Source of the DNA: Methylocapsa aurea
GTDB taxonomy: Bacteria; Pseudomonadota; Alphaproteobacteria; Rhizobiales; Beijerinckiaceae
DNA: 64,000 nucleotides
Assembly (NCBI RefSeq): GCF_000746085.1
Contig: NZ_JQKO01000008.1
Location: forward strand, 62,001-126,000
Reading direction: 5' to 3'
The position numbers and the translations under genes are program-made. Every line of letters begins with the position of its first letter. Position 1 is the stretch's first letter. Below are positions 28,770 through 34,118 of this stretch, piece by piece. The notes below the pieces were generated by a model, which did not search any database, had not been told where the DNA came from, and saw only the letters and a program-made list of their open reading frames with translations.

Positions 28770-28872
28770 AGCGCTTTCAGATTCAGCGGAATCAGAAAGC
28801 AGCTCTAGGTCTTTGTTTTATCTCATTTTCTTAACGCGAACCGGCATCCACTTCGCTCGAAAATGCTCTAAC
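28766..28872 (+). repeat. TAGAGC-family repeat, full type B copy
   Basis: This is the clearest full-length copy. The left hairpin TAGAGCGCTTTC-AGATTC with GAATCAGAAAGC-AGCTCTA is followed by TTTGTTTTATC. The right module runs ATTTTCTTAACGCGAACCGG... to CGCTCGAAAATGCTCTAA. Its left TAG ends the plus-strand gene at 28769 and its right CTA ends the minus-strand FAHD gene at 28868, so both convergent genes stop inside it. Confidence 0.85.
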
Positions 28873-29554
28873 CGATCTCGATCAAAAGCGGCTCCAGGCC
28901 CGCGATCGTCGCCTCGATCTTGTCTCCCTTGACCACCGGTCCGACGCCCGCCGGAGTTCCGGTGAAGATGAGATCGCCCGGCGCGATTTCGACGAGCCGC
29001 GAGAGATGGTGAACGATTTCCGGGACCCCCCAGATCATGTCGCCGAGATCGGCGCTCTGGCGCAACTCGCCATTGACCTTGCACTGGATTTTGCCCTTGG
29101 CGACGACGCCGGTGTACATTTCCGGCGTGATCGAGGAGCAGGGGGCGGAGAAGTCGAAGGCTTTGGCCATTTCCCACGGCCGGCCCTTTTGCTTCGCCGC
29201 GTTTTGAACGTCGCGTTTGGTCATGTCGAGCCCGACGGCATAGCCGAAAATCATGTCGTTGACTTTTTCGGGCGGTATATTCTTGCCGCCCATGTTCATC
29301 GCGACCACCAGTTCGACTTCGTGATGCAGATCGCTGGTGCCCGGCGGATAAGGCATGATTTCGCCGTTCTGAAGGATGGCGTCGGCGGGCTTCATGAAGA
29401 AAAAGGGCTCGTCGGTCTCCGGATTGCCGCCCATCTCCTTGGCGTGGTCCCGATAGTTCTGGCCGACGCAATAGATGCGCCGGACGGGAAAAGGCCGGGT
29501 CGACATCGACATGAGGGAGATGACCGGCGGCTCGGCGAAGGCGTAATCACCCAT
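28868..29554 (-). CDS. Fumarylacetoacetate hydrolase family protein
   Basis: This 228-residue FAH-fold enzyme hydrolyses or decarboxylates acylpyruvate-type substrates. The core YCVGQNYRDHAKEMG with catalytic-type His, the metal ligands Glu-x-Glu in HHEVELVVA and the Asp in GYAVGLDMT are present, and GDLIFTGTPAGVGP closes the fold. The family includes acylpyruvases, maleylpyruvate hydrolases and oxaloacetate decarboxylases; the sequence does not settle which. The TAG stop is part of the repeat at 28766-28872. Confidence 0.88.
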   Translation of the reverse strand: MGDYAFAEPPVISLMSMSTRPFPVRRIYCVGQNYRDHAKEMGGNPETDEPFFFMKPADAILQNGEIMPYPPGTSDLHHEVELVVAMNMGGKNIPPEKVNDMIFGYAVGLDMTKRDVQNAAKQKGRPWEMAKAFDFSAPCSSITPEMYTGVVAKGKIQCKVNGELRQSADLGDMIWGVPEIVHHLSRLVEIAPGDLIFTGTPAGVGPVVKGDKIEATIAGLEPLLIEIG

Positions 29555-29695
29555 GGGTTCAGACCTCGGTTGAAATGGAGCGCGCGCGCGGGCGACGCGG
29601 CTGACCGCTGCTAAGCAAGCAACCTGCCAAGCTTGACCGATGTCGCGGCTGCAATTCGCGCCGCCGAAAGCGTTTGGTCCAGTCGGAGACGGACG

Positions 29696-32290: not shown

Positions 32291-32305
32291 CGGCACGCCG
32301 ATTGC
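32291..32305 (+). promoter_or_regulatory. Candidate sigma-54 (RpoN) promoter for the AAA+ gene
   Basis: The sequence CGGCACG-CCGA-TTGCT matches the -24/-12 consensus TGGCACG-N4-TTGCW at all positions but the first. The GG (32292-32293) and GC (32304-32305) are exactly ten bases apart, as sigma-54 needs. The transcript would start near 32317, giving a leader of about 77 bases. Confidence 0.5.
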
Positions 32306-32352
32306 TTAAACACTGCGACAGCGCAGGCGGCTGGTTCCGCCGCGCGGCTTTT

Positions 32353-32376
32353 CAGAGATCATTCCAGAGATCATTC
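32353..32376. repeat. Perfect 12-bp tandem repeat before the AAA+ gene
   Basis: CAGAGATCATTC occurs twice with no spacer, 17 bases before the start codon at 32394. It lies in the leader downstream of the candidate sigma-54 promoter, so it could act on RNA stability or translation, or be a binding site. Confidence 0.6.
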
Positions 32377-32393
32377 GAATTGGAGAGACAAGG

Positions 32394-34118
32394 ATGAACC
32401 TTCAGATCGATCGATCCCATATTGAGGCCATGGTGGCCGAATTCCCGAACCTGGCGCCGCTCAAGGAGCAGCTTCGGTTCGGCAACAAGGTCGAGGCGCC
32501 TTTCCATCAATTGTCGGCTTCCGAACTCGCCTTCCTGCAGAAGCTCTATGAAGACGGCGGGCTGGACTACAAAACCAAGGCGGCGCATCTTTCGACGCTG
32601 CGCAAGGCGCTTTCCAGCGGCGGCGAGCGGTTCGGCGCGGAGGATCTCGAAAATGTCGTCCCGGCGATCGCTCGCTACCTGGCCAAGGACGGCATAAGGG
32701 GTTGGCTGTTCACCGCCAATGTCACCAATAGGCCGCTGCCCTATGTGCTGACGCGGCTTGACTTCACGCCGCCGGCCGAGGATGCGGCGGGCAAGATTTT
32801 CCTGGAGCTGAAGGCCAATGTCAAAGGCTCGGTGACGACGCAGGTTCTGCGCATTTCCTCGACCGATATCATCGGCAGGACGGTTGGCGAAATCTTCGCC
32901 ATGAAAGGGTTCCTCAAGGAGACCCCGGAACTCATCGAGGAATATGACAGAACAGTCGAAAAATATTTCGATTGGCGGGCGCAATATGGCGCGCAGTTTT
33001 CCGCCAAAGGCACCGGCTTTTACGCCGACGATCCGAATTCGACGCATCGCGATACGGATTGGACCCGCAAGGATGTCGTCGTCCTCTCAACCAGCGGCGG
33101 CCCCGCCCGGCTGGTGAATGATGAAGGCGTTTTGACCGCCCGCACCCTGACGATGGATGCGACCGGCGACATCCTTGGCCAATATCTCAAGAAAGCCGCC
33201 AAGAGCGATCGCTACAGCGCCGAGGACGAGGTCGAGGAATCGCAAAAAGAGATCCCCAAGGGTCTCTTCACCCAATTGCCGGTCCACGCCTATGTCCTGA
33301 TGTTCCACCTCGAATTGCACCATTACATCTGGGTCCATGTCGATGACATGGAGCTCTATGAGTATCAACCGCAATTGAAGGAAAAGCTGGTCCTGCCGCA
33401 GGAGCAGACCGATCTCATCGACATTCTGACGGCGGAAATGGACGTCCTCATGGATGACATCGTCGCCGGCAAGTCCGGCGGCACCACGGTGCTTTGCGCC
33501 GGGCCGGCGGGCGTCGGCAAGACTCTGACCGCCGAAGTCTATTCGGAAATCATCCGGCGCCCGCTTTACCGGGTTCACTCAGGCCAGCTCGGTCTCAATG
33601 TCGCCCAGATGGAGCAGGCCTTGAAAGACGTCCTGACGCGGGCGCAGCGCTGGGGCGCGGTCATGCTGATCGACGAGGCCGACGTCTACATCAAGAAGCG
33701 CGACGACAATATCGCGACCAACGCGGTCGTCGGCGTGTTCTTGCGCGTGCTTGAATATTTCAACGGGCTCTTGTTCATGACCACCAACCGCGTGGACGAC
33801 ATCGACGAAGCCATCGTTTCGCGCTGCATTGCGATGATCAAATTCCATCCGCCGACCGCCGACGCGCGGCGCCGGATCTGGGAGGTGATGACGCAGCAAT
33901 TCGCTTTGCCCGTCGAGGAAAAGTTGAAGGACGATCTGGTTCACATGTTCCCGGCGGCGACCGGGCGCGACATCAAGGGCCTGACCAAGCTCACCGCGAA
34001 ATTCTGCAATCAGAAGAATGTGCCGCCGACGGCGGAGGTCTTTATCCGCTGTTCGGTTTTCCGCGGCCTCGATCTGGCCCATCCCGCCGAAGCGCCGATC
34101 GCGGCGGCGGCGGAATGA
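32394..34118 (+). CDS. Orphan AAA+ ATPase of unknown function
   Basis: The 574-residue protein has an N-terminal region of about 330 residues with no motif I recognise, then one AAA+ module: Walker A GPAGVGKT at 370-377, Walker B VMLIDEADVYI at about 423-433, sensor 1 TTNR near 463 and a likely arginine finger in the Asp-Glu-Ala-Ile-Val-Ser-Arg stretch. The module, notably RRPLY after Walker A and FLRVLEYFNGLLFMTTNRV, is closest in my memory to a family of single-module AAA ATPases frequent in fungi. There is no protease, nuclease or membrane segment and no partner gene. It converges on tag. Confidence 0.85.
   Translation: MNLQIDRSHIEAMVAEFPNLAPLKEQLRFGNKVEAPFHQLSASELAFLQKLYEDGGLDYKTKAAHLSTLRKALSSGGERFGAEDLENVVPAIARYLAKDGIRGWLFTANVTNRPLPYVLTRLDFTPPAEDAAGKIFLELKANVKGSVTTQVLRISSTDIIGRTVGEIFAMKGFLKETPELIEEYDRTVEKYFDWRAQYGAQFSAKGTGFYADDPNSTHRDTDWTRKDVVVLSTSGGPARLVNDEGVLTARTLTMDATGDILGQYLKKAAKSDRYSAEDEVEESQKEIPKGLFTQLPVHAYVLMFHLELHHYIWVHVDDMELYEYQPQLKEKLVLPQEQTDLIDILTAEMDVLMDDIVAGKSGGTTVLCAGPAGVGKTLTAEVYSEIIRRPLYRVHSGQLGLNVAQMEQALKDVLTRAQRWGAVMLIDEADVYIKKRDDNIATNAVVGVFLRVLEYFNGLLFMTTNRVDDIDEAIVSRCIAMIKFHPPTADARRRIWEVMTQQFALPVEEKLKDDLVHMFPAATGRDIKGLTKLTAKFCNQKNVPPTAEVFIRCSVFRGLDLAHPAEAPIAAAAE

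Follow-up and report, generated by a model that had tools for sequence, protein, structure and literature searches.

Nitrogenase depends on many helper proteins, and the incomplete list of these helpers holds back its transfer into crops. Sigma-54 promoters follow the consensus TGGCACG-N4-TTGCW, while the NifA enhancer (TGT-N10-ACA) is located 60-150 bp upstream. AAA+ unfoldases that thread their substrates carry an aromatic-hydrophobic-glycine motif in pore loop 1.

The AAA+ ATPase analysed here is encoded in a 64,000-nucleotide stretch of the Methylocapsa aurea genome (contig NZ_JQKO01000008.1, positions 62,001 to 126,000), hereafter the window. Its AAA module is shared with the classical AAA proteins (Rix7/NVL, Cdc48/p97, proteasomal ATPases and Msp1), among which Rix7 is the best sequence match (e-value: 4.7e-13); unlike the module, the N-terminal domain has no sequence match in the PDB at E<=5. 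IetA of the anti-phage IetAS system also shares the module (e-value: 1.2e-9), but the ATPase reaches 37.8 bits against the NF042959 model, with its cut-off of 510, and has a nif context, and its identification as IetA was rejected. A near full-length match (residues 78-559; 36% amino acid identity; e-value: 4e-106) is found in PHROG_29662 of the Bacillus phages AR9 and PBS1, although the AR9 protein is the product of a phage gene and is placed outside the nif-linked clade. The AR9/PBS1 homologues (L108:2914-4560) are in places labelled 'ATP-dependent protease'. This label is doubtful for the ATPase, since no protease family is found among its Pfam matches at E<=1, and was not adopted.

As judged from its position in a hydrogenase cluster, azo3791 of Azoarcus sp. 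BH72 is a probable ortholog. A 2014 list (PMC3916325) names it a 'conserved hypothetical ATPase' and counts it among eight BH72 genes that have both predicted RpoN and NifA sites and whose expression changes in response to N2 and NifA. The BH72 hoxB gene, azo3807 in the same source, is 16 numbers from azo3791, similar to the ~15 genes which separate an ortholog from a hoxB-like gene in the genome G844 (see below), while the NifA site predicted for azo3791 has no visible counterpart before the window gene. The view in the preliminary description that such an ATPase had not been described is nearly right, with the one line on the probable ortholog azo3791 as the exception. No other account, and no experiment on function, was found in the open literature searched: PMC8467165 and PMC2820453 gave no match for an ATPase and PMC6706786 no matching passage, the term AAA+ in PMC12727197 denotes NifA's own domain, and the AAA-type ATPase of PMC7341956 comes from a Chlorobi MAG, where it is placed in a retrotransposon-like nif region.

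Architecture and relatives of the ATPase

The gene, identified by its open reading frame, Pfam AAA match and orthologs, extends from the ATG at 32394 to the stop codon at 34118 on the + strand and codes for 574 amino acids. Residues 366-484 match the AAA family (PF00004; Bitscore: 61.7; cut-off: 21.2; e-value: 1.3e-16), and with the gathering score passed and both Walker motifs present the protein is a member of this family. The AAA+ module, delimited by sequence and invariant columns, spans residues 345-560 (33426..34073, + strand) and contains Walker A (GPAGVGKT, 370-377), Walker B (LIDEAD, 425-430), TTNR (463-466), R477 and GRDIKGL (524-530), the functional roles of which we take to be those usual for such motifs. 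G370, P371, G373-T377, D427 and E428 are invariant across 38 aligned sequences. The remaining four Pfam matches listed at E<=1 fall short of their own cut-offs, and in the NCBIfam search nothing exceeded its cut-off, the better sub-cut-off matches being AAA models. No ClpX or MoxR model, a clear match to which would have refuted the preliminary description, appears in the Pfam and NCBIfam match lists (E<=1). The preliminary description of the N-terminal region as unfamiliar also holds, as residues 1-330 (32394..33383, + strand), with a predicted alpha/beta fold, have no Pfam match at E<=1. In the sequence alignment, the place of pore loop 1 is occupied by QLGLNVAQME, without an aromatic residue and thus without the aromatic-hydrophobic-glycine motif of threading unfoldases (GLNVAQME in the ATPase, compared to NKYVGESE in Rix7). 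Because of this absence of an aromatic residue, local remodelling seems likelier than the threading of unfolded chains.

The model of the N-terminal domain is good (mean pLDDT 86.9), while in the full-length model the AAA part is poor (pLDDT 34-51 over residues 331-490), and its fold matches therefore speak mainly for residues 481-566. No solved structure matches the fold of the N-terminal domain at E<=0.001. The best such match (VIA; Z 5.6 over 59 residues) concerns small barrels and is weak, and residues 194-331 weakly resemble KOW/Tudor/SH3 barrels in fold comparison. The N-terminal domain is, however, like the giant-virus 'AAA family ATPase' models of Homavirus, Klosneuvirus, Terrestrivirus, a mimivirus and Hyperionvirus (Foldseek e-values between 1.9e-6 and 1.4e-4; the six top matches with probability 1.00), from which it differs in sequence (8-15% identity) and over the alignment as a whole (query TM-score 0.34-0.41; rmsd 12-19 A). 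The eukaryotic resemblance put forward in the preliminary description is thus partly supported, by this giant-virus fold likeness only.

A contig scan identified 42 loci, the best segments of which are 58-91% identical and which by their record titles span the alpha-, beta- and gammaproteobacteria. Full-length orthologs, 37 in number, align at 62-91% identity, the nearest named relative being that of Methylocapsa acidiphila B2 (91%), and further orthologs came from whole-genome searches. In the tree, from which orthologs of at most 500 amino acids (L016, L027, L038, L041 and L043) and later loci of at most 480 amino acids were left out, a branch with an SH-aLRT of 99 separates the ortholog group (70 rows) from 12 paralogues. 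A phage protein (L113; branch length 10) fell inside the nif-linked clade in a first tree and was removed before the tree was rebuilt. Nineteen positions are specific to the ortholog group, being kept in at least 95% of its members and absent from the paralogues. The wider family occurs on plasmids and in the Bacillus jumbo phages AR9/PBS1, and a search of viral contigs returned one weak relative. The N-domain/AAA+ family as a whole has no name, and the orthologs form a single clade within it, for the most part carried by nif-bearing genomes. The ATPase combines an ordinary AAA+ engine and an unnamed N-terminal domain with an unexpected setting, the sigma-54 nitrogen-fixation programme.

Sigma-54 element and upstream enhancers

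A -24/-12 element, CGGCACGCCGATTGCT, is located at 32291..32306 on the + strand, 88 bp before the ATG of the ATPase gene. It contains one mismatch to the sigma-54 consensus, with exactly 10 bases between the GG (32292-32293) and the GC (32304-32305), as the preliminary description had it. Within the window this motif does not stand out: 7 matches with at most two mismatches were found (10.2 expected), and 2 with at most one mismatch (0.51 expected), a number reached in 11/100 shuffles. GG-N10-GC sites were therefore scored, with our own weights built from this consensus, over the 350 bp that precede each of 60 orthologs, leaving out duplicates (L044, L046, L048 and L050) and a partial hit (L065). 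A score of at least 20 was obtained for 22/60 upstream regions, compared to 3.4% of 2271 background stretches, and a score of at least 19 for 38/60, compared to 9.9% of the background; 22/60 orthologs scored below 19. The window and all eight of its nearest relatives (at least 80% identity) carry an element scoring 20-22, and in the alignment of these nine loci GGCAY...TTGCT is the one block kept throughout, while the rest hardly aligns. This block arises partly by construction, since the nine sequences were cut around their best-scoring site before alignment, and the scores over 60 orthologs are the fairer measure of conservation. In Rhodocyclaceae-type loci the element is mostly located 34-38 bp before the ATG. 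Among 15 previously unused ortholog loci (excluding duplicates L069 and L072 and partial L122 and L123), seven have a promoter score of at least 19, and among 13 paralogue loci two have a score of 19. Because the promoter recurs before the orthologs, the motif by itself not being significant, the predicted sigma-54 control of the ATPase gene is well supported, in agreement with the preliminary description.

Exact TGT-N10-ACA sites, searched above promoters scoring at least 19, are present in 20/38 cases, compared to 1.35 +/- 1.14 in single-base shuffles, and 19/20 are located at 68-89 bp. All 20 belong to loci of the beta/gamma type, a large share of which are closely related to each other. 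Of the seven previously unused loci with a promoter, five have an enhancer at 66-100 bp, while none of the 13 paralogue loci has one. This near-fixed spacing, as in a NifA regulon, supports putative NifA control of the orthologs in beta/gamma members. The window lineage keeps the sigma-54 promoter without a recognisable enhancer: neither the window nor its eight nearest relatives have an exact NifA-type site in the 250 bp preceding the element (and thus none at 60-150 bp), and the window has none within 700 bp upstream, while four near relatives have a site 500-700 bp upstream. The window genome does encode NifA, together with four NifA-model matches below the cut-off, and the promoter of its nifH cluster has two exact NifA-type sites. 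NtrC-like sites are not enriched upstream (6/9 loci, compared to 7.0 in shuffles).

Association with nitrogen-fixation genes

With each genome counted once and that of L006 left out, nifH is present in 68/76 genomes carrying the ATPase gene (20/23, 33/37, 6/6 and 9/10), many loci being those of close relatives, so that these counts are not independent events. Among 149 Beijerinckiaceae genomes, 23 have an ortholog and 25 have nifH over the cut-off, with an overlap of 20 genomes (Fisher 2.7e-17, without correction for descent). Within nine genera (35 listed genomes) the association is weak (permutation p 0.05), and shared descent therefore explains part of the link. The three Beijerinckiaceae carriers without nifH are G042, G050 (78% complete) and G135. 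In G135 nifD is over the cut-off, G050 has weak nifD-family matches only, and G042, listed as 100% complete, yields neither nifH (at E<=1e-60) nor nifD (at E<=1e-40). Five genomes of this family have nifH without the ATPase gene (G017, G033, G095, G105 and G138). Among the other carriers, reached through named loci, 33/37 have nifH at E<=1e-60 (32/37 over the cut-off). Of the four nifH-less ones, two lack any nifD-family match, while the other two have one of ~320 bits, comparable to the second match that accompanies nifD in G135.

Eight orthologs were found in 321 genomes of Gammaproteobacteria (in the GTDB sense), two of them (G167 and G182) already known from an earlier search, and all eight genomes have nifH. 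Of the 29/321 genomes with nifH in this sample, 21 have no ATPase gene. In the Rhodocyclaceae (111 genomes), 10/11 carriers (>500 bits) have nifH, while neither nifH nor nifD was found in the eleventh, G907. Seven of 20 further genomes without the ATPase gene have nifH, as do none of five paralogue-only genomes (four with 45-58% paralogues and G345 with a 47% partial hit) at E<=1e-100. The alphaproteobacterial sample speaks against a strict link with nif: nifH is present in 9/318 genomes and the ATPase gene in that of the window only, leaving 8/9 nifH-bearing genomes without it. The ATPase is probably an accessory of some diazotrophs.

Thirteen loci are situated within 25 kb of nifH, nifD, nifE or nifV/nifW (G061, G071, G100, G123, G143, G230, G321, G369, G823, G888, L017, L042 and the Methylococcus sp. 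EFPC2 plasmid), the names nifD and nifE (in the query set), SagB-like and several hydrogenase names being assigned by eye. On the Methylococcus plasmid, nifL, isc genes, nifV, nifW, small genes, Grx4, BolA and two small genes are followed by the ATPase gene, a gene for an 83-amino acid protein, an FAH-family gene, two small genes and GST. In the mapped nif-linked loci, the ATPase gene occurs together with nif, isc, GST or mod genes. In the window genome it is located outside the nif cluster, on contig C6 as opposed to C2 for nifH, with an adenine glycosylase gene downstream. The G844 ortholog is surrounded by a [NiFe] hydrogenase cluster, next to genes for hydrogenase subunits and hyp genes and ~15 genes from the hoxB-like gene (several names by eye; neither the hoxB-like nor the hoxC-like gene reaches its model cut-off), and has its own sigma-54 element, with an enhancer at 89 bp, on the strand opposite to the cluster. 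Co-occurrence with nifH, location in nif clusters and the NifA-type enhancers of relatives support the nitrogen-linked role offered in the preliminary description, while the stress role offered with it is not supported.

The gene had also been described as having no obvious partner, a view that does not quite hold, as an FAH-family hydrolase gene (28868..29554, - strand; PF01557; e-value: 2.8e-52) is located 2.8 kb away. FAH enzymes are common. This gene has its own sigma-54 element, TGGCAGGTTGCTTGCT (29614..29629, - strand), 60 bp before its ATG. Apart from the element of the ATPase gene, no further site in the window has one mismatch or fewer. The encoded protein is 58-72% identical to the products of ATPase-near FAH genes (L009, L011, L037, L066/L077 of G321, and L088), and the homologue on the Methylococcus nif plasmid lies downstream of the ATPase gene. 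Among the nine loci nearest the window, FAH is located upstream in six (window, L004, L006, G045, G116 and G009, in the last about 10 kb from the ATPase gene), each with an element scoring 20-22 before it, and was not found upstream in G126 (13 kb searched), L002 (6 kb) and the short contig L005. The more distant Beijerinckiaceae locus L091 has a 51% identical FAH with an upstream score of only 17, and in beta/gamma loci FAH is found inside gene runs with upstream scores of 13-20. The FAH-family gene is a probable partner of the ATPase gene, as suggested by this recurrent proximity.

Possible function and further neighbours

The ATPase is probably a single-module AAA+ protein-remodelling accessory of the sigma-54 nitrogen-fixation programme. 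Upon nitrogen starvation, sigma-54 RNA polymerase together with NifA, or another enhancer-binding protein in the window lineage, would turn the gene on. Beyond the regulation and genome association, which come from computation, we infer that the protein would form a ring, that its N-terminal domain would select a client and that ATP hydrolysis would remodel or release this client without degrading it. The likeliest client would be either one of the nitrogenase components or a protein that takes part in protecting nitrogenase or in maturing its Fe-S/FeMo-cofactor. More tentatively, the ATPase might be dedicated to nitrogenase as Rubisco activase is to Rubisco, a non-threading AAA+ machine paired with the FAH-family hydrolase which in aerobic and microaerobic diazotrophs would assemble, reactivate or release nitrogenase or its maturation intermediates. 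As some of the diazotrophs among the alpha-, beta- and gammaproteobacteria carry it, in many cases with nif-type control, the ATPase is a candidate missing part among the nitrogenase helpers. It would also represent the nif-linked branch of an AAA+ family without a name, which reaches jumbo phages and, by the fold of its N-terminal domain, giant viruses.

The sigma-54 element kept in the window lineage without a nearby exact NifA-type site, the location outside the nif cluster beside an adenine glycosylase gene, and the other possible activators among the four sub-cut-off NifA-model matches are also consistent with control by general nitrogen starvation in this lineage, through NtrC or another enhancer-binding protein, and a role in general proteostasis rather than for nitrogenase. 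This is unlikely, as NtrC-like sites show no enrichment and the wider clade is nif-associated. The position of the G844 ortholog inside a hydrogenase cluster and the distance of azo3791 from hoxB (PMC3916325) could reflect service to the [NiFe] uptake hydrogenase that recycles nitrogenase-made hydrogen, rather than to nitrogenase; the separate promoter and opposite strand of the G844 gene, and the association with nif, isc, GST or mod genes in the mapped nif-linked loci, render this very unlikely.

Even less probable is a defence or mobile-element ATPase travelling with nif islands. The weak similarity to IetA and TRIP13 models and the paralogues on plasmids and in jumbo phages PBS1/AR9 would fit such an origin, but the nif-linked clade is firmly split from these paralogues, the IetA score is far below its cut-off, and nif-type promoters and enhancers precede the orthologs. 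Least credible of all is a chance promoter match combined with a nif link by accident of descent, for which the non-significance of the motif in the window alone and the within-genus permutation could be cited: the near-fixed spacing of promoter and enhancer is repeated from locus to locus, including previously unused ones, the nifH link recurs in separate classes, and paralogue loci rarely have the promoter and never the enhancer. The accessory role in the nitrogen-fixation programme is thus the reading we prefer.

In six other Beijerinckiaceae loci (L091-L095 and L097), the ATPase gene is located behind a SagB-type nitroreductase-like gene (by eye), with no sigma-54 element near it. Where up to 4.5 kb upstream was searched in seven SagB-like or similar loci, elements scoring at least 20 were found in four, namely L091 (at -1165), L093 (at -2381), L095 (at -2295, close to the approximate position, -2.2 kb, of a GST gene) and L096 (at -444, where a Rieske-like gene follows and an enhancer is also present), and none in L092, L094 and L097; these distant elements were not counted as ATPase promoters. 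NCBIfam returned nothing specific for six small neighbours of the ATPase gene. A TPR-like protein of ~155 amino acids, to which no specific family name applies, recurs in the neighbourhood, encoded downstream of the ATPase gene in L018-L021, L028 and L030, upstream in L014, L032, L034, L035 and L038, and also in the Methylococcus nif region (L088:17834-18304). A conserved protein of ~117 amino acids, with no NCBIfam match, follows the ATPase in L104, L105, G230 and G369 of the gammaproteobacterial sample. NnrS-like genes (nitric-oxide related, by eye) are located downstream in the Rhodocyclaceae-type loci L013, L015, L018-L022, L026, L027 and L030.
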